Shown here in pieces: positions 11,082-32,566 of a DNA stretch of 64,000 nucleotides. Each line of letters opens with the position of its first letter. The first letter of the stretch is position 1. The position numbers and the translations under genes are program-made. Source of the DNA: Jiella endophytica (GTDB lineage: Bacteria; Pseudomonadota; Alphaproteobacteria; Rhizobiales; Rhizobiaceae); contig NZ_SOZD01000009.1 in the NCBI RefSeq assembly GCF_004519335.1, forward strand, positions 1 through 64,000, read 5' to 3'. Under the pieces are notes generated by a model. That model saw nothing but the letters and a program-made list of their open reading frames with translations, ran no database searches and was not told where the DNA came from.

Positions 11082-11965
11082 TCGATGTTCTGCACCTGCT
11101 CGCGGAACTGGTCGACGACGACCTTCAGGTCGAGCCCGATGGCCGTCAGCGACGCTGCGTTGGATTTGGAGCAGATCGTATTCGATTCGCGGTGAAATTC
11201 CTGCGAAAGAAAATCGAGCCGCCGGCCGATGACGCCGCCGTCGGCAAGAAGCGTCCCGGTCGCCGCCAGATGGGCGCGCAGCCGGTCGATCTCCTCGCGG
11301 ATGTCGGCCTTGGCGGCGAGGATCGCGGCCTCCTGATGCAGCCGCGCGGGATCGAGATCCTCGCTGGCGCCGATCAGCGCCTCAACCTGTTCCTGAAGCC
11401 GCCTGCGGATCGCCTCGGTGGTGCGCGCAGGGTCGCGGTCGGCCTTTTCCGCCAGTTCCGAGATCTCGCCGAGGCGGGCGGAAAGCACCTTCGCCAGCGC
11501 CGCACCCTCCTCGCGCCGGACCTCCTCGAGCCGCGCCAGCGCATCCTCGAAGCCGGCGACGACTGCCGCGTCGCGGGCTTTCGCACCGGTCTCGTCGAGG
11601 CTCTCCTCGGCGATATCGATCAGCCCCTTGATGGCGAGGAGACCGTCGGCGGTGGGCGGTGCGGCATGGCCCTCGGCAACCAGCTTGCCGGACATGGCGA
11701 GCAGGCGCGACAGCATCTCCTCGTTGACGACGAGGCTCGGCGCGCCGCCCTCGCGCCGCCATTGCAGATTGGCCTGGAGATTGCCGCGGGTGATGACGGC
11801 CGACAGACGGCGTTTCAGGTCGGCTTCCAGATGCTCCATGCCCTGGGGCAGGCGGAAGCGGACGTCGAGGCCCTTGCCGTTGACCGCGCGCAGCTCCCAG
11901 ACGAAGGAGCCCGCAGCCGTCTCGACCTCGGTCCGGGCAAAGCCCGTCATGCTCCTCACCGCCAT
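11078..11965 (-). CDS. yicC: YicC family endoribonuclease
   Basis: A 295-residue YicC/YloC protein. E. coli YicC is an endoribonuclease affecting small-RNA turnover (family knowledge). The N-terminal [13 protein letters not shown] is diagnostic, and the C-terminal DUF1732 part includes [20 protein letters not shown], also diagnostic. The ATG at 11965 has AAGAAGGG upstream and matches the family start; an ATG at 12046 would add an unconserved 27-residue leader. Its stop overlaps the gmk start by four bases. Confidence 0.95.
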
Positions 11966-12115
11966 CGCGCGCCCTTCTTGTCGTCGGTCCTGCCGCCTGC
12001 GGCCCCAAACGGTCGAGCGGCTTCGTTGGACGATTGAGTGTCCCATCGCGGCCGAAGGATCAAGTCCCGGCCCGGCAAGGCCGCAGAAATCGCCCGTCTC
12101 CGGCTGTCGCGCCGA

Positions 12116-13240
12116 TCAGCCGCCGCTGCCCGGCGCCGCGTCCCGCTCGGCCGCCCGCTGGCGCTCCAGCGCCCGGTACTTGGCGACGTTGTTGTTGTGC
12201 TCTTTCAGGCTCGACGAGAAGACGTGACCGCCGGTGCCGTCGGCGACGAAATAGAGGTCGTCGGTCTCCATCGGATGGGCGACGGCTTCGAGCGCCGCCT
12301 TGCCCGGATTGGCGATCGGGCCGGGCGGCAGGCCGCGGACCTTGTAGGTGTTGTAGGGGGTGTCGCTGTCCTTGTCGGACTGCGACACCGGCTGGCCGGA
12401 GGGCTTTCCGGCGCCGCCATAGACGCCATAGAGGAAGGTCGGGTCGGAATCGAGCCGCATGCCCTTCTTCAGCCGGTTGATGAAGACCGAGGCGACATGC
12501 GCCCGCTCGCCGTCGATGCCGGTCTCGCGCTCGACGATCGAGGCGAGCGTGATGAACTGGCCGATGTCCTTGATCGGCAGGTCGGGGTCGCGGCCCTTCC
12601 AGATCTCCTCGACCAGCTGGTCCTGGGCGGTCTTCATCCGCCGGACGATCTCCTTGCGGGTGGCGCCGCGCTGGACGAGATAGGTGTCGGGCTTCAACGT
12701 GCCCTCCGGCACCTCGCCGGGCATCTCGCCGGAGAGGAAATCGGCATTGGCGATGCGCTCATAGGCGCGGTTGACCGTCCAGCCTTCCGGAATGGTCACG
12801 GCGTGCATGATCGAATCGCCGCTCTTCAGCTTCTCCATCACCTGGCGCATCGACGCACCGGGCGGGAAGGCGAATTCGCCGGCCTTCAGCTGGCCGCCGG
12901 CGCCGGAAAGCCGAACACCGTATTCGAACACTTCGGCGCTGGAAATGATGCCCTCGCCCTCGAGACCGGAGGCGATCGCCGAGACGCCGGTGGAGCGCGG
13001 CACCACATAGGTCGCCTCCTGCTTCAGCGGCCCCGGGCTGTCGAATTCGCTCTTGCCCCAATAGAGCAGCGCGCCGGCCGCGAGCACCACGAAGAGCGCC
13101 GCCGACAGGCAGAAGTTCAGGAACACCACCACCTGATTGCGGGCATGGCGCGAGCGCCTCGGCGGCTTGGGGGCAGGCGACGGCTTGAACGAACGGCCGC
13201 CATAGCCCCGACGATCCCCGTCTGCGTATTGGTCGTTCAC
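12116..13240 (-). CDS. mltG: Endolytic murein transglycosylase MltG
   Basis: Inner-membrane lytic transglycosylase that cuts nascent peptidoglycan and is thought to set glycan strand length. It has a cytosolic Pro/Arg-rich N-terminus, one transmembrane segment (FLNFCLSAALFVVLAAGALLYW), a LysM-like subdomain and the YceG core. The catalytic Glu lies in LASIVERETG; other family motifs are LKPDTYLV, RLKKGMRLDSDPTFLYG and GLPPGPIANPG. I chose a GTG at 13240 because AAGGGGG sits 5 bases upstream; the exact start is not certain. It heads the mltG-yicC-gmk run. The fabF and acpP genes that often precede mltG in this order are absent. Confidence 0.95.
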   Translation of the reverse strand: MNDQYADGDRRGYGGRSFKPSPAPKPPRRSRHARNQVVVFLNFCLSAALFVVLAAGALLYWGKSEFDSPGPLKQEATYVVPRSTGVSAIASGLEGEGIISSAEVFEYGVRLSGAGGQLKAGEFAFPPGASMRQVMEKLKSGDSIMHAVTIPEGWTVNRAYERIANADFLSGEMPGEVPEGTLKPDTYLVQRGATRKEIVRRMKTAQDQLVEEIWKGRDPDLPIKDIGQFITLASIVERETGIDGERAHVASVFINRLKKGMRLDSDPTFLYGVYGGAGKPSGQPVSQSDKDSDTPYNTYKVRGLPPGPIANPGKAALEAVAHPMETDDLYFVADGTGGHVFSSSLKEHNNNVAKYRALERQRAAERDAAPGSGG

Positions 13241-13426
13241 CGACACCCCCTTCTTCGCGTCCCCGAATCCCCGCCCTCTGCCAGCATGGCAATGTGGCAA
13301 AACGCCGGACAACGCAAGGAATGCGACCCCCTTGGGGAGGTGGGGCGGCCGCCGGTCCGGCGTCTGAAACCGGGGCTACGAGCGGCATCGGGCGCGGAAA
13401 GCCGCTCAAGGCCGGGGGACCGGCCG

Positions 13427-13903
13427 TCAGGCGAAGACGTTGAGGTCGCCGCGCAGCCGGTCGGCCTCACCGGCGATGCCGAGAGCCTTTTCGAGCGCTG
13501 CCTGGGTCTCCTCCCACAGCGGCACGGCCCTGACGAGCAGCTTGAGACCCTCCTCGGTCAGGCGCGGCCGGCGCGAGCGCTTGTCCTGCGGATCGGCCGA
13601 AACGATGACGAGGCCGCGGCGCTCCAGTGGCTTGAGATTGGCGGTCAGCGTCGTGCGATCGAGGCCGAGAAGCTGCGCCACTTGGCCGAGCGTCGGCGGC
13701 GCGGGGCGATTGAGCGACATCAGGATCGAGAACTGCCCGCCGGTGAGGTTCAGCGGCCGGAAGGCGTCGTCGAACCGCCTCGCAATCGCCCGCGCAGCCC
13801 GCTGGGTATGCAGGCACAGGCAGCGGTCGCGAACGTCGATCGTCGTCGTGAAGGGGACGACGGTCTTCAACGGTTCGTGAGGCGAATCATTCCGGTTTGA
13901 CAT
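13427..13903 (-). CDS. MarR family transcriptional regulator
   Basis: A 158-residue MarR protein. The winged-helix core includes LTGGQFSILMSLNR, the recognition-helix region LGLDRTTLTANLKPL and the wing DPQDKRSRRPRLTEEG. Two N-terminal cysteines (RCLCLHTQ) are placed where some MarR proteins sense oxidants or electrophiles; this is inference. It is transcribed away from the GST gene, with 52 bases between the two starts and a perfect 12-base palindrome in that gap. By location it most likely represses the eight-gene cassette and itself. Confidence 0.92.
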   Translation of the reverse strand: MSNRNDSPHEPLKTVVPFTTTIDVRDRCLCLHTQRAARAIARRFDDAFRPLNLTGGQFSILMSLNRPAPPTLGQVAQLLGLDRTTLTANLKPLERRGLVIVSADPQDKRSRRPRLTEEGLKLLVRAVPLWEETQAALEKALGIAGEADRLRGDLNVFA

Positions 13904-13914
13904 GGTTCATTTAT

Positions 13915-13926
13915 GTTGATATCAAC
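13915..13926. promoter_or_regulatory. Candidate MarR operator palindrome
   Basis: Perfect palindrome GTTGATATCAAC centred between the divergent marR (start 13903) and GST (start 13956) genes. Size, symmetry and placement fit a MarR-dimer operator that could control both genes. Confidence 0.65.
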
Positions 13927-13955
13927 CTATCCGTCAAGTCGAAGGGGAGGTTTCG

Positions 13956-14630
13956 ATGCAGGGCAATTCCGTTGTCGTTACGGCCTATGACTGGGTGCCG
14001 TCCTTCGCCCAGGGCCATGTGCGCGACCTGAGGGTTCGCTGGGCGCTCAACGAGGCCGAGACCCCTTACGAGACGCGGCTGATCGACCACCAGCAGAAGA
14101 CCGAGGCGGAGCATCTCGCCCGCCAGCCCTTCGCCCAGGTTCCGGTGATCGACCTCGACGGCGGCTCGATGTTCGAATCCGGTGCCATCGTCTGGACCAT
14201 CGCCGAAGCGAGCGACAACCTCCTGCCGAAGGACGCGGCCGGCCGGCGCAAGGCGCTCACCTGGTGTTTCGCCGCCCTCAACACCCTCGAGCCGGTGGTC
14301 GCCCGCCTCGCCGAGGTCGAGTTCTTCATCGACGACGCCGAGGTGAAGGAAAAGCTGCGGCCTCGCGCGATCAAGGCGGTCGAGACCCGGCTCGCCCAGC
14401 TTCAGGCCGCACTCGGCGAGGCCGAGTATCTGACCGGCGAATTCTCCGCGCCTGACATCCTGATGGCGACGGTGCTGCGCGACCTCGGCCATTGCGACGT
14501 GCTTTCGAAATTTCCCGCCCTTTCGGCCTATCTCGAGCGCTGCCTCGCCCGGCCGGCCTTCGCAAAAGCCCTCGACGAGCAGGTGAAGCCCTTCGCCGAA
14601 AACGCCCACCGCTACGAACAGGCGGCCTGA
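13956..14630 (+). CDS. Glutathione S-transferase family protein
   Basis: A 224-residue cytosolic GST. The N-terminal thioredoxin-like domain includes the cis-Pro segment FAQVPVIDLDGG and the glutathione-contacting FESGAIVWTIAE; the C-terminal helical domain includes YLTGEFSAPDILMATVLRDL. GSTs conjugate glutathione to electrophiles. It has AGGGGAGG upstream of the ATG at 13956. It is the first gene of the MarR-linked cassette. The substrate is unknown. Confidence 0.92.
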   Translation: MQGNSVVVTAYDWVPSFAQGHVRDLRVRWALNEAETPYETRLIDHQQKTEAEHLARQPFAQVPVIDLDGGSMFESGAIVWTIAEASDNLLPKDAAGRRKALTWCFAALNTLEPVVARLAEVEFFIDDAEVKEKLRPRAIKAVETRLAQLQAALGEAEYLTGEFSAPDILMATVLRDLGHCDVLSKFPALSAYLERCLARPAFAKALDEQVKPFAENAHRYEQAA

Positions 14631-14667
14631 CGCGGGCCCAATTCGCGAAAGCCTCCGGAGACGAGAC

Positions 14668-15363
14668 ATGCAGAATAGCGAACTGACGCCCGCGGCGGAG
14701 CTCGCGCGGCTGAAACCGGCGCATTTTCCCAATGAGAGCGCCGACTATCGCAAGGCGCGGACAGCGCTTCTCGCCGAGGAGATCGAGCTGAGGCGCCACA
14801 TCGCCCGCGTCGCCGCGCTGCGCCGGGAGCTGCCGCCAGGCGGCGAGGTGACCGCCGACTATCGCTTCGTCGGCGAGGACGGCGAAGTCGGGCTCGGCGA
14901 TCTGTTCGGCCGGCACGACACGCTAGTCCTCTACAGCTTCATGTACGGGCCGGCCCGCAAGGCGCTCTGCCCGATGTGCGGCGCGACGATGACCGCCTGG
15001 GACGGCGAAGTCCCGCATATCGAGCAGCGGGTGGCCTTCGCCACGGTCGCCCGCTCGCCGATCGGGCGCATCCGCGAGCTTGCCGCCGAGCGCGGCTGGC
15101 GGAACCTCAAGCTCTTCAGCGATGTCTCCGGCGACTACACCAAGGACTATGTCGGCGATCCTGACGCCGACATGCCGGCCTACAACGTCTTTACCCGCAA
15201 GGGCGGGACGATCCGGCACTTCTGGGCCCCGGAAGGCGGCAGCGAGATCGCCGATCCCGGCCAGGACCCGCATATGGCGCCGGACCTCAATCCCCTCTGG
15301 ATCATCCTCGACACGACGCCCGAGGGGCGCGGCGCCGACTGGTATCCGAGCCTTCGCTACTGA
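14668..15363 (+). CDS. DUF899 family thioredoxin-like protein
   Basis: A 231-residue DUF899 protein, a thioredoxin-fold family of unknown function often placed with small stress enzymes. The central VLYSFMYGP and LCPMCGATMTAWDGEVPHIEQR segments are characteristic; the CPMC pair sits where a redox motif would be expected. The C-terminal part (YNVFTRKGGTIRHFWAPEG) is also typical. A CCGGAGACGAG ribosome site precedes the ATG. It lies 37 bases after the GST gene. Confidence 0.88.
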   Translation: MQNSELTPAAELARLKPAHFPNESADYRKARTALLAEEIELRRHIARVAALRRELPPGGEVTADYRFVGEDGEVGLGDLFGRHDTLVLYSFMYGPARKALCPMCGATMTAWDGEVPHIEQRVAFATVARSPIGRIRELAAERGWRNLKLFSDVSGDYTKDYVGDPDADMPAYNVFTRKGGTIRHFWAPEGGSEIADPGQDPHMAPDLNPLWIILDTTPEGRGADWYPSLRY

Positions 15364-26475: not shown

Positions 26476-27732
26476 TCAGGCCTTGTCGAGGCCGTAGACG
26501 CCGTGCAGCGCCCGCACGGCCAGTTCGGTGTAGTCGCCGTCGATCAGGATCGAGATCTTGATCTCGGAGGTGGTGATCGCCTTGATGTTGATACCGCGGG
26601 CGGCGAGCGCCTTGAAGGCCGTCGCCGCGACGCCGGTGTGGCTGCGCATGCCGATGCCGATCACCGAGACCTTGGTGAGTCCGGATTCGCTCTGCAGCGA
26701 ATCATAGCGCATCTCGGCCTTGGCCTTTTCGAGGATCGCCGTGGCCTTCTGCAGGTCGCCGGCCGGCACCGTGAAGGTCATATCCGTCGCATCGCCGGAT
26801 TCGGAGATGTTCTGGACGATCATGTCGACATTGACGCCGGCATCGGCCAGCGGACCGAAGATCGCCGCCGCGACGCCCGGGCGGTCCTCGACGCGCCTCA
26901 GCGAGATCTGCGCCTCGTCCCGCGAATAGGCGATACCCGTCACCACCTGCTGTTCCACGATTTCGTCCTCGTCGCATATGAGGGTTCCCGGCGGATTGTC
27001 GAAATCGCCCATGCCGGGAGCATCCGGATCCTCGAAGGAGGAGCGCACGAAGGTGCGCACCTTGTGTACCATGGCGAGCTCGACCGAGCGCACCTGCAGC
27101 ACCTTGGCACCGAGCGAGGCCATTTCGAGCATCTCCTCGAAGGAGATCCTCGCCATGCGCCGGGCCTTGGGCTCGATCCGCGGATCGGTGGTGTAGACGC
27201 CGTCGACGTCGGTATAGATGTCGCAGCGATCGGCGGCGATCGCCGCGGCGATGGCGACGGCGCTGGTGTCCGAACCGCCGCGCCCGAGCGTCGCGATGCG
27301 GTTGTCCGGGGCGATCCCCTGGAAGCCGGCGACGACCGCCACCTGCTGCTCCTCGTCGAAGCGGCGGACGATCTCGGCGGCGTCGATCTCCTGGATCCTC
27401 GCGGCGCCATGGGAGCCGTCGGTGCGGATCGGGATCTGCCAGCCCTGCCAGGAGCGGGCGTTGATGCCCATCTGCTGCAGCGTGATCGCCAGGAGCCCGG
27501 CGGTGACCTGTTCGCCCGAGGCGACCACCGCGTCATATTCGCGGGCGTCGTGGATGGGCGAAGCCGCGCGGCACCAGCCGACCAGCTCGTTGGTCTTGCC
27601 CGCCATCGCCGATACCACCACGGCGACATGGTGACCGGCATCGACCTCGCGTTTGACATGCCGGGCGACATTGCGGATGCGGTCGACGTCGCCGACGGAT
27701 GTTCCGCCGAATTTCAGGACGAGACGGGCCAT
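26476..27732 (-). CDS. lysC: Aspartate kinase
   Basis: Phosphorylates aspartate, the first step towards lysine, threonine, methionine and diaminopimelate. The 418-residue protein begins MARLVLKFGGTSVGDVDRI, with the kinase motif, followed by VVSAMAGKTNELV and TLGRGGSDTSAVAIAAA. Two C-terminal ACT domains (SLRRVEDRPGVAAAIFGPLADAGVNVD and SVIGIGMRSHTGVAATAF) indicate allosteric control, usually by Lys and Thr. The ATG at 27732 is chosen from the conserved N-terminus. lysC-ptsP-prfA is the usual rhizobial order. Confidence 0.97.
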   Translation of the reverse strand: MARLVLKFGGTSVGDVDRIRNVARHVKREVDAGHHVAVVVSAMAGKTNELVGWCRAASPIHDAREYDAVVASGEQVTAGLLAITLQQMGINARSWQGWQIPIRTDGSHGAARIQEIDAAEIVRRFDEEQQVAVVAGFQGIAPDNRIATLGRGGSDTSAVAIAAAIAADRCDIYTDVDGVYTTDPRIEPKARRMARISFEEMLEMASLGAKVLQVRSVELAMVHKVRTFVRSSFEDPDAPGMGDFDNPPGTLICDEDEIVEQQVVTGIAYSRDEAQISLRRVEDRPGVAAAIFGPLADAGVNVDMIVQNISESGDATDMTFTVPAGDLQKATAILEKAKAEMRYDSLQSESGLTKVSVIGIGMRSHTGVAATAFKALAARGINIKAITTSEIKISILIDGDYTELAVRALHGVYGLDKA

Positions 27733-27924: not shown

Positions 27925-28524
27925 TCACCGCGGCCCCGATCTTGCGAGAGGCTTGTCGAAGGCGTCCATCCGATAGCGGCTGGTACGGCTGGAGAGCGCC
28001 GGCAGCAGGCGTCGGCGGCAATGGCGCTCGACGAGACGCGCCGCGGCGGCAGGCCGCGTTGCGGCATCGCCGAATGGAACGACGTGATGCAGCGCGACCA
28101 GCCGGCCGCCAGGCGCCAGCGCCGCCTCGATCCGCCTGAGGCACGCCTCGAGATCGCGGCGCGGCAGGTAATAGAGGATCTCCGACGCGACGATCAGGTC
28201 GAACGGCCCCCGCGGCAGTCCTTGCGGCAGCAGGCCTCTGACGAAACGGACGTTCTTCGCCCCTACATTCCTCGCCGCCGCATGGGCGAGCGCGGTGGGC
28301 GATGCATCCTGCGCGACGAGCCTCAGCGCCGAGCGGCGGAGCGCCGCGGTGGTCTCGCCATTGGCGCAGGCGAGTTCCAGCACCCGGCCCCGGCAGCGTG
28401 GGCCGCAGCCTTTCAGAAGCACCTCACGCTTGTTCCGCTCAAATAGTGAGCCGGCATAGTTCCACGGATCGGGATCGGCTCGGAACAGCGCCTCGAAACC
28501 GTCGGCATCGATCACCCGTCCCAT
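27925..28524 (-). CDS. NodS-like SAM-dependent methyltransferase
   Basis: A 199-residue class I methyltransferase of the NodS-like group. NodS N-methylates the deacetylated sugar in rhizobial Nod factors (family knowledge). Visible features: FRADPDPWNYAGSLFERNKRE at the start, the SAM-binding strand VLELACANGETTAAL, and FDLIVASEILYYLPRRDLE. It is the last gene of a four-gene cluster; its start overlaps the PIG-L gene by 13 bases. A role in methylating an amino sugar made or trimmed by its neighbours is inference; nod-box sequences and other nod genes are not present. Confidence 0.85.
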   Translation of the reverse strand: MGRVIDADGFEALFRADPDPWNYAGSLFERNKREVLLKGCGPRCRGRVLELACANGETTAALRRSALRLVAQDASPTALAHAAARNVGAKNVRFVRGLLPQGLPRGPFDLIVASEILYYLPRRDLEACLRRIEAALAPGGRLVALHHVVPFGDAATRPAAAARLVERHCRRRLLPALSSRTSRYRMDAFDKPLARSGPR

Positions 28525-29228
28525 GGCCGCACATAGATCTCCAGCGGCCCGGTCAGCCGTGCGATGGTCTCTTCGCCGAGCAGGAAGCCGTCCGGATCGT
28601 CGTCGATCAGGGCCGTCGTCTGCGACAGATGCGCCGCCACCGCCTGGCGCTTGGCGACCCTGAGATGCGAGACGTCGAAGGCGACGAACTCGGCCTCGTC
28701 CGGCGCCGGTCGGTCACCGAGTTGACCGAACTCGTCGAGCCAGATCGCATATTCCATGGTCGCGATGGCACGGCCAGACGCGGCGATCGCCTCCGTCGAC
28801 AGGCGCCAGGAATCGCGATGGTCGCGATGCGGATCGCGGCGCCACGGCAGCAGGACGAGATCCGGCCGGAAGCCGGCGAGCAGCTGCTCGACCCTGTCGC
28901 GCGCGGCGGTCCATTCCGCCGAGCCCGGCTGCGGCATGTCGGCGTCCCTCAGCCGCAGGAAGCTGCGCGGCTGATTGCCGAGACCGAGACGGGCGAGCGC
29001 TTCGGCCGCTTCGCTCTCCCGCTGCGAGGCGAGGCGCTGGCGCGGCCAGCTTTTTGAGGCGGGATGCGAGGCGCCGCCGTCGGTGACGAACAGCGTGTGG
29101 ATCTGCCGCCCGCCCGCCGCCAGCATGACCATCAGACCGCCGCAGCCGAGAGACTCGTCGTCCGGATGCGGCGCGATGACGAGGATGCGGCGGGCATCGA
29201 TGTCGCGGGGGTCGAGAAGGCGCGGCAT
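28512..29228 (-). CDS. PIG-L family deacetylase
   Basis: A 238-residue LmbE/PIG-L metal-dependent de-N-acetylase. The zinc-site motif is ILVIAPHPDDESLGCGG near residue 15, and the third ligand lies in DPHRDHRDSW. These enzymes remove acetyl groups from N-acetylglucosamine-type sugars or small glycosides. The ATG at 29228 lies just inside the end of the upstream acyl-CoA dehydrogenase-like gene, so they are coupled. Together with the neighbouring glycosyltransferase and NodS-like methyltransferase it suggests synthesis of a modified amino-sugar compound (inference). Confidence 0.92.
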   Translation of the reverse strand: MPRLLDPRDIDARRILVIAPHPDDESLGCGGLMVMLAAGGRQIHTLFVTDGGASHPASKSWPRQRLASQRESEAAEALARLGLGNQPRSFLRLRDADMPQPGSAEWTAARDRVEQLLAGFRPDLVLLPWRRDPHRDHRDSWRLSTEAIAASGRAIATMEYAIWLDEFGQLGDRPAPDEAEFVAFDVSHLRVAKRQAVAAHLSQTTALIDDDPDGFLLGEETIARLTGPLEIYVRPWDG

Positions 29229-29230
29229 CG

Positions 29231-30325
29231 TCACCGGCCGGCCGCCATTTCGCCGGCGAGAAAGGCGTCGGCAAATCCGGTGAGGGCGCCGTCGGGGTTC
29301 GGCTGGCGAAGATAGGTGCGAAGGTCGGGGATCAGCCGCTCCAGAGGATGCGGCGCATTGAAGCCGGCGGCACCGACCGCCCGCTCGGCGGTTTCGAGAA
29401 CCTCCATCGCCAGTTGCTCGACCACCGTCCTGAAGCCGTTGGCAACGGCACGCAGCCGGGCGCCATCGGGATCTGCACCCACCGCCGTCTCGGCCGCGTC
29501 CCAGGCGTCTGCGGCCGATTCCAGCCACAGCCGACCGGTTTCGAGCGCCAGCCCCATCCTCCCCAGACGATGCGCCTGATGGGGATTTCCGGACCGACCC
29601 GAAGCCTGAAGGTGATCGACTGCCGCCTGCGCCACCGCCCGCATGCCGCCGACATGGACTGCGGAAAAACGGATGGCGCCGCCAGTGAACCACGGCTCGG
29701 CGATGTAGTCGCCGGGTACGCCGAGCGGCGTGATGGCCTCTGCCGGCACCGGGGCGAAATCCACCACATGGCTGCCGGAGGCCGTCATGCCGAGGGGTCG
29801 CCACCAGGAGCGGTCGACCGCGACCGCATCGAGCCCGACGATGAACATCTGCCGGCCGTCCGGGACCGGGGCGGTGACGATCGCATGGCTGAGGCCGTCG
29901 ACGCCGGAGGCAAAGTTCTTCCTGCCGGTGAGCCGGCCGTCGCGAGAGGTCAGCGGATCGCCCGGCTGGTCGGTGTTCCAGACGCCGAAGAGGCCGCCCG
30001 CCTCGGCCAGCGCGTGTACCTTTCTGACGATCTCCGGCGGGCCGAACCGCCGGACGAGATCGAGCGCGTTGACATGGCCCTCATAGAGCCTGCCGAGGCC
30101 AAGATCGCCCTGCCCGACCGCGGCGAGCAGCCTGAGGAGAGAGCGCCCCTCGCCTTTGCCGATCGGCGGCCTCGAACAGAGGCCGCGCTTGCGCAGGACA
30201 TCAAAGCCTTCCGCGGGAAAGGCGTCGCGGTCGTCAGCGCCGCCAACCGCGGCGGCGATCTCCTTCGACAGACCGTCGAACCCTTCGACATTTCGGCTTT
30301 TCGCGATGATGGTCTCATGCCGCAT
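29231..30325 (-). CDS. Acyl-CoA dehydrogenase-like flavoprotein
   Basis: A 364-residue protein of the acyl-CoA dehydrogenase superfamily. N-terminal helical domain, middle segment with GGLFGVWNTDQPGDPL and RLTGRKNFASGVDGLSHAIVTAP (the beta-domain of the fold), and a C-terminal helical domain with RAVGAAGFNAPHPLERLIPDLRTYL. The sequence is shorter and more diverged than beta-oxidation enzymes; a catalytic Glu could not be assigned. The start at 30325 overlaps the glycosyltransferase stop by 11 bases. Its role in a sugar-modifying cluster is unexplained. Confidence 0.82.
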   Translation of the reverse strand: MRHETIIAKSRNVEGFDGLSKEIAAAVGGADDRDAFPAEGFDVLRKRGLCSRPPIGKGEGRSLLRLLAAVGQGDLGLGRLYEGHVNALDLVRRFGPPEIVRKVHALAEAGGLFGVWNTDQPGDPLTSRDGRLTGRKNFASGVDGLSHAIVTAPVPDGRQMFIVGLDAVAVDRSWWRPLGMTASGSHVVDFAPVPAEAITPLGVPGDYIAEPWFTGGAIRFSAVHVGGMRAVAQAAVDHLQASGRSGNPHQAHRLGRMGLALETGRLWLESAADAWDAAETAVGADPDGARLRAVANGFRTVVEQLAMEVLETAERAVGAAGFNAPHPLERLIPDLRTYLRQPNPDGALTGFADAFLAGEMAAGR

Positions 30326-31472
30326 GGCCGATATCCTCATAGCCGGCGAGATGGGCGGTGAGTTCCGCGATCGCCTCTGCGACGGGCACGCTCGCCGGCG
30401 CATCCGGCTCGTCCGGGGCGAAGCGCTCGACGAGAAACGCCCGGAAGCTGCCGTCGCCCCGTCGGGCGCGCCATTCATGGGCCGCAATGCCGAGAAGGCT
30501 GGCGAGATCCTGATCGCCGGCAGGGCCTTCCAGCCGGCCGGACCGCAGATAGGACCGCAGCCGGGCACGTTCGACGACGGCCGACGGCGCCTCGACGAGA
30601 TGCGGCCGATCGGCATTCGCCATGTCCACCCAGTCGCGCAGGCAATCGGCCATACCGCCAAGTGCCCGGCCGACGGTGCGCGCCGAGACTTCCACGACGA
30701 CCTCGGGCGCATGCCGCAGCCGAAACCCGGCGGCCCGAAGCCGCGAGACGAAATCGAGGTCCTCGCGGGTCGGCAGGGCGGCGAACCCGCCGATGCTGTC
30801 ATAGACTTGCGCCCGGAAGGCGAGGCTCGCGCCGGTGTGGTGTCGATGGCGCGGCCAGGGATCGTGGGCGATCGGGTCGATGATCGCGGTGAGCTGGTCC
30901 GCCAGCATCGCGTAGCACTCATGGTCGCGGGCCCGGGCAAGAAACTTCTCGCCGAGCATCGCCTCTTCGGCGGCATTGCCGACGATCTGCCCGCCGACGG
31001 CATCCGCTCCGGCGGCGATCGCCGCAAGATTGGCCTCGATCCAAGTCTCAAAGGGCCGGGCGTCGGCGTCGGTGGTCAGCAGCACGGCTTCGTCGGAGCG
31101 TGGCGACAGCGACCGCGCGACGTCGAGCGCCAGCCGGCGGGCCGAGCCGACATGGGCGCATGGCGGCGGGAAGTCGACCACCACCGGATAGAGCGCAATG
31201 CCTGGCTGCGTGGCGGCGGCCTCGGCGGCGATCTTGGCGGAGGCATCGGTGCAGTTGTTGAAGACGAGGACGAGCGGCAGAGGCGCCGAAGCGGCGGCAA
31301 GGAATGTCTGCCGGCCGAGCGCCTCGATCAGCCCGGCGATCCGTTCGGCTTCGTTGCGCACCGGCACCGCCACCAGCGGCAGCGCCCGCCGCCCGCCGAC
31401 ACCGCCCGGCCCGGGCACGCACCGGGGCGCGGCATCGGCGATCTGCGCAGGCTGGGGGAACTCTGGCGACAC
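30315..31472 (-). CDS. Family 2 glycosyltransferase
   Basis: A GT-A fold glycosyltransferase of about 385 residues. The nucleotide-sugar region begins LPLVAVPVRNEAERIAGLIEAL; the metal-binding DxD-type motif is LLTTDADARP, followed by GGFAALPTREDLDFVSRLRAAG, a typical acceptor-side ED motif. No transmembrane segments are evident, so it is a soluble enzyme rather than a NodC-like processive synthase. The start is uncertain: GTG at 31472 has GAGAGG about 13 bases upstream; an upstream GTG at 31562 would add 30 residues. First gene of the four-gene cluster. Confidence 0.85.
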   Translation of the reverse strand: MSPEFPQPAQIADAAPRCVPGPGGVGGRRALPLVAVPVRNEAERIAGLIEALGRQTFLAAASAPLPLVLVFNNCTDASAKIAAEAAATQPGIALYPVVVDFPPPCAHVGSARRLALDVARSLSPRSDEAVLLTTDADARPFETWIEANLAAIAAGADAVGGQIVGNAAEEAMLGEKFLARARDHECYAMLADQLTAIIDPIAHDPWPRHRHHTGASLAFRAQVYDSIGGFAALPTREDLDFVSRLRAAGFRLRHAPEVVVEVSARTVGRALGGMADCLRDWVDMANADRPHLVEAPSAVVERARLRSYLRSGRLEGPAGDQDLASLLGIAAHEWRARRGDGSFRAFLVERFAPDEPDAPASVPVAEAIAELTAHLAGYEDIGHAA

Positions 31473-31822
31473 GGAACAGACCGTCCTCTCAAAAACCTTG
31501 CCGTTGCTAAGCGCGGCGCAACTGCGAACTCCCGCTCTGCCGGCCGAAGCGGTCAAGCACATCGAAAGCGAATGTCGACGCCCTGTGGGAGCGAGCGCTC
31601 ATGGTGACGTCAGATCGCATGACGAATTTGCACCGCTAGAAGGTTGTAAGGCTGACGGTCGTTCCCGCATCCGCAGGGGTTTTCGCTTTGCCGGCTGTCC
31701 ATTGCCGGGGTCGCCATCCCCGCATGGCTGCCACGCAATTCCCTTATTGCCGCGTCATGCGCTTGACTTCGCGGCCACGGAGCGAACATGCCGCCTGCAA
31801 ATGCAATGAACGGAACGGATCG
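31473..31822. other. Divergent intergenic region, four-gene cluster / ubiG
   Basis: No gene supported. It must carry both divergent promoters. A TTGACT at 31763-31768 could be a -35 element for ubiG but has no good -10 partner. Confidence 0.4.
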
Positions 31823-32566
31823 ATGCCGGACGCAACGACGATCGACGCGGGCGAGGTGGAACGCTTTTCGCGCCTCGCCAGGGAGTGGTGGAACCCTGCC
31901 GGCAAGTTCAAGCCGCTGCACAAGTTCAACCCCGTCCGGCTCGATTATATCCGCAACGAGATCGCCACCAATTTCGCTCGCGATCCTCTGCAGCCGAAGC
32001 CCTTCGAAGGCCTGTCGATCCTCGATATCGGCTGCGGCGGCGGGCTGATCTCCGAGCCCCTGGCGCGGCTCGGCGCGACGGTGGTGGGCGCCGACGCGTC
32101 GGAGACCAATATCGAGGTGGCGCGGCTGCACGCCTCGGGCACCGGCCTCTCGATCGACTACCGGGCGACGACGGCCGAGGCGATCGCCGCCGGCGGCGAG
32201 ACCTTCGATGTCGTATTGGCGCTCGAGATCGTCGAGCATGTCGCCGATGTCGATCTCTTCCTGTCCTCCTGCGCGGCGATGGTGAAGCCCGGCGGCCTGC
32301 TCTTCGTCGCGACGATCAACCGGACGTTCAAGGCACTGACCTTCGCCATCGTCGGAGCCGAATATGTGCTCGGCTGGCTGCCGAAGGGGACGCACCAATA
32401 TTCGAAGCTGGTGCGGCCGGAGGAGATCGAGCGTCCGGTCCAGGCGGCGGGGCTGTCGATGATCGACGAGACCGGCGTCGTCTATCACCCGCTGGCCGAC
32501 GAATGGCGGCTCTCGCGCGATCGGGACGTGAACTACATGCTGCTTGCCCGGCGTCCGGAAGTGTAA
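31823..32566 (+). CDS. ubiG: Ubiquinone biosynthesis O-methyltransferase
   Basis: UbiG carries out both O-methylation steps of ubiquinone synthesis with SAM. The 247-residue protein opens with the family signature [27 protein letters not shown], followed by the SAM motif [21 protein letters not shown] and the membrane-associated stretch with [28 protein letters not shown]. The ATG at 31823 matches the family start. Divergent lysC/ubiG is the usual rhizobial layout; here four genes lie between them. Confidence 0.97.

Follow-up and report, generated by a model that had tools for sequence, protein, structure and literature searches.

The question raised by this locus of Jiella endophytica is whether four overlapping genes that separate lysC from ubiG are one functional unit, and what such a unit could make. 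The genes lie in a stretch of 64,000 nucleotides (contig NZ_SOZD01000009.1 of assembly GCF_004519335.1, positions 1 to 64,000 of the forward strand), called the window below, and are predicted to encode a family 2 glycosyltransferase (GT2), a flavoprotein, a PIG-L deacetylase and a methyltransferase. Comparison across genomes supports that the four families form one unit and that their arrangement is more than chance. With a probability of roughly 0.55, the four genes would form a biosynthetic cassette that is complete in itself and whose product is an amino-sugar glycoside or glycoconjugate modified at the nitrogen. The features of the cassette are as follows:

30315..31472, minus strand: GT2 glycosyltransferase, first gene of the cassette; GTG start; PF00535 at 29.3 bits; cassette glycosyltransferase profile at 463-465 bits (the window sequence is itself included in this profile)
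29231..30325, minus strand: acyl-CoA-dehydrogenase-like flavoprotein, probably a group D flavin monooxygenase; ATG start; PF00441 at 34.4 bits; family profile closest to DszC and related monooxygenases; no catalytic Glu
28512..29234, minus strand: PIG-L/LmbE-type N-deacetylase; GTG start; PF02585 at 96.5 bits; diacetylchitobiose deacetylases nearest
27925..28524, minus strand: NodS-like S-adenosylmethionine-dependent methyltransferase; ATG start; PF05401 at 43.7 bits; family profile finds NodS at 95 bits

All four open reading frames (ORFs) are uninterrupted and co-directional, spanning 27925-31472, and are transcribed in the order GT2, flavoprotein, PIG-L, methyltransferase. Adjacent genes share 11, 4 (taking the GTG start of PIG-L) and 13 bases, which would fit one transcript for the four genes. 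Alternative starts are an ATG at 31562 for GT2 and an ATG at 29228 for PIG-L. The Pfam matches of all four proteins exceed the curated cut-offs; that of the flavoprotein covers the acyl-CoA dehydrogenase C-terminal domain only, and general methyltransferase models reach up to 53.9 bits on the methyltransferase. For the comparisons below, a cassette was defined as flavoprotein, PIG-L and methyltransferase genes in the same direction with GT2 on either side, an arrangement that the window locus has. A second PIG-L gene of the window genome (G000 C23:249682-250071, L002) has no cassette partners within a 3.4 kb stretch.

The original prediction called for a search for the four families in fixed order across genomes and would have been refuted by rare co-occurrence; the families do co-occur. 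In a census of 247 genomes of the same family, the flavoprotein was found in 35, PIG-L in 36 and GT2 in 35, the same 35 genomes throughout, with the lists compared by eye and the methyltransferase, outside the census, seen only in the fetched loci. This census and the class-wide draws given below count the window genome where it belongs and use strict thresholds; the large genome searches score only the 7-11 best candidates per genome, which leaves absences uncertain. PIG-L adjoins the flavoprotein gene in 35/35 census genomes, and GT2 lies within about 3 kb in 34/35. In the extra PIG-L genome (G240), the stretch read encodes a methyltransferase and PIG-L, but of the flavoprotein just a C-terminal piece is present, so that this looks like a decayed cassette copy. 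Searching genome contigs with the flavoprotein alignment yielded at least 506 relatives among 594 candidate stretches, and the best 80 loci were analysed with our own profiles (presence taken at >60 bits, some loci ending at contig ends). Chosen by the flavoprotein alone, 51 of these 80 contained all four families; flavoprotein with methyltransferase was seen in 15, flavoprotein alone in 6, flavoprotein with PIG-L and methyltransferase in 5, and three other patterns once each. The loci come from Alphaproteobacteria, Cyanobacteria, Bacteroidota, Verrucomicrobiota and Thermomicrobia, and the same gene order is shared over several phyla. Gene calling was noisy in high-GC loci.

One shared pathway is further suggested by genomes in which the set is split, since the separated parts are still kept together in one genome. 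G292, a genome of the same family with a size of 1.16 Mb and 39% G+C over the stretches examined, has its flavoprotein, PIG-L and methyltransferase genes beside a catalase-like gene, and GT2 about 770 kb away inside a run of glycosyltransferase genes. The two places of this set are L100 5872-8323, with catalase-like and thiamine-type neighbours, and L101 3992-8238, within the glycosyltransferase run. Similarly, the Methylobacteriaceae have a flavoprotein locus without PIG-L, yet a cassette-type PIG-L was found elsewhere in 4/4 tested genomes (one each), with a cassette-type GT2 nearby in 2/4; in Methylobacterium (L121), GT4, GT61 and galactosyltransferase-like genes stand beside the displaced PIG-L and GT2. 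In addition, the distance matrices of the four proteins, compared over 57 loci, correlate at 0.83-0.94, and 1000 permutations of each pair never gave more than 0.23.

When neighbouring ORFs were clustered, the four families accounted for the largest clusters (77, 62, 59 and 59 loci); a larger obligatory operon was rejected since the fifth-ranked cluster reaches only 9 loci. Among the less frequent neighbours, a catalase cluster lies beside 8/106 loci in more than one phylum (the one representative tested by Pfam is a long catalase), and UDP-galactopyranose mutase with a GT1 gene occurs in 3 loci of 3 phyla (L004, L080, L089). A galactosyltransferase-like gene (E up to 1e-25) was found in 15/35 cassette genomes versus 4/212 others, which speaks for a glycan context.

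In the window lineage, the cassette is a local insertion between ubiG and lysC, because two same-genus genomes have a ubiG-lysC gap of only 0.27-0.35 kb. The position of the four genes between these flanks, and the view that lysC and ubiG are normally divergent neighbours, had both been proposed before. Profiles confirmed the flanks, which lie outside the cassette, and the neighbourhood is divergent in two same-genus genomes without the cassette at this site:

26476..27732, minus strand: lysC, aspartate kinase; NF005154 at 634 bits; start set by eye from the translation
31823..32566, plus strand: ubiG; TIGR01983 at 294 bits; ATG start set by eye from the translation

In one of them (G321), where no cassette was found, ubiG (112546-113280) and lysC (113548-114816) are divergent and 267 bases apart; in the other (G219) the gap is 352 bases and the cassette is elsewhere, near other glycosyltransferase genes. 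A third genome of the genus (G391) carries the cassette between ubiG and lysC, there 4.0 kb apart, and the same site is occupied in a Fulvimarina metagenome-assembled genome (L013) and in an uncultured Aurantimonas (L014).

On a wider scale, the cassette was concluded to be transferable, widespread but patchy, moving between genomes and replicons and present on chromosomes and plasmids. The flavoprotein was found in 3/190 genomes of a class-wide draw, compared with the 35/247 of the family, and in 42/242 genomes in the class of one cyanobacterial carrier. Plasmid records of Deinococcus and Kitasatospora hold all four families, and further plasmid-record copies were found in D. radiodurans, Pandoraea, Rubrobacter and Acinetobacter; the stretch read in D. 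radiodurans encodes flavoprotein, PIG-L and methyltransferase. Carriers of the full set of four also occur in Nostoc and Hymenobacter. The PIG-L gene of a Jiella plasmid (L008 7900-8620) is matched in two frames, and this copy may be decayed.

The flavoprotein is called acyl-CoA dehydrogenase (ACAD) in public annotation and in Pfam, and the original prediction had followed this name, which is probably wrong. Against solved structures, the family profile scored DszC at 94.8 bits, methanesulfinate monooxygenase at 94.3, nitrososynthase at 82 and KijD3 at 78, while the best structure plainly named acyl-CoA dehydrogenase reached 72.0 bits. At the near-C-terminal column of the catalytic Glu, 51/52 relatives have Pro and 1/52 Ala, whereas the Glu is retained, in an EGTN motif, by two ACADs that the same genome encodes. 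At the isovaleryl-type position, a column placed by eye, Glu was found in 0/52. Both columns are taken by us to hold the catalytic base of the dehydrogenases, and an acyl-CoA dehydrogenase activity was rejected since the Glu is missing at both positions in 52/52 relatives. The flavoprotein is thus probably a group D flavin monooxygenase, a better reading than dehydrogenase. According to one source, group D enzymes have the ACAD fold, receive reduced flavin from a reductase and catalyze reactions that include aromatic and N-hydroxylations; structure 4kcf is given there as KijD3 (PMC5481743). The flavoprotein shares with DszC, methanesulfinate monooxygenase, KijD3 and nitrososynthase the ACAD-like character and the absent dehydrogenase Glu, but differs in being only remotely similar to the solved members and in having reductase-type genes close by in few loci. 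Such genes, which count in favour of the proposed chemistry, lie in a distant Gloeothece locus (L012), a Verrucomicrobiota metagenome-assembled genome (L061) and Rubrobacter (L099). Since the flavoprotein is probably no acyl-CoA dehydrogenase, the glycosylated acyl compound formerly suggested as a product loses its main prop.

SfnB and SfnG are flavin enzymes of sulfur acquisition, and genes of these types adjoin flavoprotein-methyltransferase pairs in Methylobacterium (L043, L044, L047, L054, L056, L067, L079, L081 and L091); one gene of each type was named by NCBIfam and the rest were assigned by clustering. In three tested genomes with such pairs, PIG-L and sometimes GT2 were found elsewhere. 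Deinococcus has a flavoprotein gene of roughly double length (L004 5699-8062; L096 4543-6882). The N-terminal half of its product had no match in Pfam and resembles, at about 25% identity, the family 1 glycosyl hydrolase of an adjacent gene in L004.

With 96.5 bits against a cut-off of 28.2 the deacetylase belongs to PF02585, and its nearest solved relatives are diacetylchitobiose deacetylases (87.8 bits), followed by TT1542, BshB, glycopeptide deacetylases and MshB. Residues H21, D23, D24, E25, D132, H134, D136 and H137, presumably the metal and base residues, are invariant in 8 aligned rows. BshB and MshB are likewise PIG-L family de-N-acetylases of N-acetylglucosamine (GlcNAc) conjugates, but their partner genes differ, and membership in the bacillithiol or mycothiol pathway was rejected since the cassette protein stays below the BshB and MshB cut-offs (68.8 bits on the BshB1 equivalog, cut-off 182.5). 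The methyltransferase profile matched structure 4isc (184.8 bits), which evidently belongs to the family, and next NodS (95 bits); among structures whose function is named, NodS is the closest. The protein also passes the Pfam NodS model (43.7 bits versus 24).

The idea of a Nod-factor-like logic without nod genes stood for two of its steps. As in Nod-factor tailoring, an N-deacetylase, a NodS-family methyltransferase and a GT2 enzyme are combined, but the deacetylase is PIG-L (PF02585), with no NodB deacetylase (CE4) among the four window genes, and a flavoprotein is added. The cassette GT2 is not NodC-like, its profile scoring one nodC (L118) at only 10.4 bits. NodA was absent from the four proteins and from the conserved neighbour families, the whole genome being outside this search, and, in contrast with Nod-factor systems, the cassette hosts are mostly not known here as nodulating. 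The cassette was concluded not to be a Nod system.

The deacetylate-then-methylate order on a GT2 product is supported by a replacement of the deacetylase and by gene fusions. On a Rubrobacter plasmid (L099 5081-9729), deacetylase, flavoprotein, methyltransferase, pyridine-nucleotide reductase and GT2 genes follow in that order, and the deacetylase is a NodB-type polysaccharide deacetylase (PF01522, 92 bits) where PIG-L is missing. A search for polysaccharide deacetylases near the Methylobacterium flavoprotein, covering 10 genomes and 2 records, gave other matches, but only the Rubrobacter one was placed at the locus. Moreover, in four plasmid proteins of about 1000 residues GT2 is fused to a methyltransferase of NodS type (61-86 bits) and to a polysaccharide deacetylase (59-109 bits):

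L112 3396-6476, L113 3405-6407, L114 3378-6380 and L115 3498-6410: trifunctional proteins of rhizobial and Sulfitobacter plasmids

These proteins join the same three reaction types in one chain. They differ from the cassette in having a polysaccharide deacetylase instead of PIG-L and a GT2 domain that scores no more than 16-25 bits with the cassette profile, while their methyltransferase domains reach 100-130 bits. No flavoprotein is annotated in the four stretches viewed around them. In a tree of 104 methyltransferases, three NodS sequences and the four trifunctional domains form one clade (96/89), which joins one set of alphaproteobacterial cassette enzymes by a branch with 83/74 support. 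A nesting of NodS among the cassette enzymes was rejected because this placing branch is weakly supported and the tree is midpoint rooted.

The comparisons show the conserved unit, its gene order and co-occurrence, the insertion and the loss of the dehydrogenase Glu; every chemical step of the proposed pathway, and its biological role, we infer from the enzyme families and the neighbourhoods. GT2 would transfer an N-acetylated amino sugar, GlcNAc most probably, to an acceptor or help to build a glycan core. PIG-L would then remove the acetyl group and free the amine, a chemistry established for the family on a substrate that is presumed here, and the NodS-like enzyme may methylate the freed amine, as NodS does. 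The flavoprotein would act as a flavin-dependent monooxygenase on the amino sugar or the acceptor; N-oxygenation of the KijD3/nitrososynthase type is the first guess, with S- or C-oxygenation possible. The cassette would move between genomes and replicons, and in the window lineage it was inserted between ubiG and lysC.

Several points weigh against this pathway. The likeness of the flavoprotein to monooxygenases is remote (94.8 bits for DszC versus 72.0 for a plainly named dehydrogenase), two intermediate matches at 88 bits carry the depositor name "acyl-CoA dehydrogenase type 2", and a flavin reductase is absent from the conserved neighbour set. N-methylation is not assured, the methyltransferase reaching 53.6 bits on the NodS equivalog NF041650 against a cut-off of 300, and GT2 has no informative solved relative (best 27 bits). 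Matching distance matrices are also expected from shared descent, some copies look decayed (G240 and the Jiella plasmid PIG-L), only 3 of the 190 class-wide genomes, the window genome among them, carry the flavoprotein, and the galactosyltransferase-like gene was not found in the window genome.

Among the alternatives, the one to be taken most seriously, although it is clearly the less probable account, is that the cassette decorates a larger glycan, such as a surface polysaccharide or glycolipid (for example exopolysaccharide amino sugars), and makes no free small molecule. Other glycosyltransferase genes near L103, L008, the GT2 locus of G292 and Methylobacterium L121 agree with this, as do the three loci with UDP-galactopyranose mutase and GT1. 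Yet a polymerase or flippase was not seen as a conserved neighbour, the next cluster comprising only 9 loci, and many copies, that of the window included, lack another glycosyltransferase family in the conserved set. It is unlikely that the flavoprotein is an S-oxygenase and that the cassette serves to make or recycle a sugar conjugate with sulfur in it or a derivative of a low-molecular-weight thiol. DszC and methanesulfinate monooxygenase are the nearest profiles, PIG-L is related to BshB and MshB, and the flavoprotein-methyltransferase pairs beside SfnB and SfnG genes in several Methylobacterium fit S-oxygenation too, a further point against the preferred pathway. Sulfur genes were, however, found only with the Methylobacterium pairs, apart from an SfnG-type gene at the distant Gloeothece locus (L012), PIG-L is below the BshB and MshB cut-offs, and a cysteine ligase is absent from the conserved set.

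It seems very improbable that the flavoprotein is a genuine acyl-CoA or acyl-ACP dehydrogenase, introducing a double bond into an acyl chain that is then attached to the deacetylated sugar as in a Nod-like lipid. The public annotation and Pfam name of the flavoprotein and the resemblance of the gene combination to lipo-chitooligosaccharide building would speak for it, but the catalytic Glu is missing in 52/52 relatives and an acyltransferase occurs neither among the four genes nor in the conserved neighbourhood. That four unrelated genes came together by chance or as a passenger block is hardly credible: the patchy class-wide distribution (3/190) would suit it, but it is contradicted by the joint presence in 35/247 genomes, the order conserved over several phyla and the keeping of parts even when the set is split. 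The amino-sugar cassette is preferred.

With regard to its role, neighbours of other copies weakly hint at protection under light, drying or oxidative stress. Genes of the catalase cluster adjoin several copies; a Bradyrhizobium plasmid copy (L009) lies between a BLUF-domain gene (643-1074) and DNA ligase, Ku and ligD genes (11655-14918); and on an Acinetobacter johnsonii plasmid (L116 4213-7223) the cassette has a shorter GT2, with trehalose synthesis genes nearby. The motif that we take to be that of the alphaproteobacterial general stress sigma factor (GGAAC, spacer 15-18, GTT) was present, in full or in part, upstream of 9/60 alphaproteobacterial copies, ranked first of 90 permuted motif pairs and was commonest at a spacer of 15-18. 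The motif also matches the reverse strand in 5/60, however, 8 matches were obtained with a shifted motif, and a full match is absent upstream of the window copy.

A cassette-like gene set has appeared in print as genomic context. The legend for a blue-light receptor region of Acinetobacter nosocomialis lists DUF2171, acyl-CoA dehydrogenase, GlcNAc-PI de-N-acetylase, methyltransferase and glycosyltransferase as genes 1-5, with no function assigned to them there (PMC9020721); the annotated order of the A. johnsonii plasmid L116 is the same. Searches of the open literature, most subscription papers being beyond reach, turned up no account of the cassette as a system and only this legend.

These results point to a unit hidden under four uninformative gene names, one of them probably wrong, which is kept even in a 1.16 Mb genome and resembles the amino-sugar tailoring of Nod factors, except that the deacetylase is of another kind and a flavin enzyme is added. 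A bolder view, offered tentatively and at well under even odds, is that a widespread multi-phylum pathway on plasmids and chromosomes makes an undescribed amino-sugar glycoside, N-methylated and N-oxidised, as a protectant for bacteria that live in sunlit, dry or oxidising places, and that the enzyme for Nod-factor N-methylation was recruited from this same older deacetylate-then-methylate toolkit. If the amine is indeed oxygenated, sugar N-deacetylation, N-methylation and N-oxidation would be joined in one common bacterial pathway, and the NodS family would gain a setting outside symbiosis.

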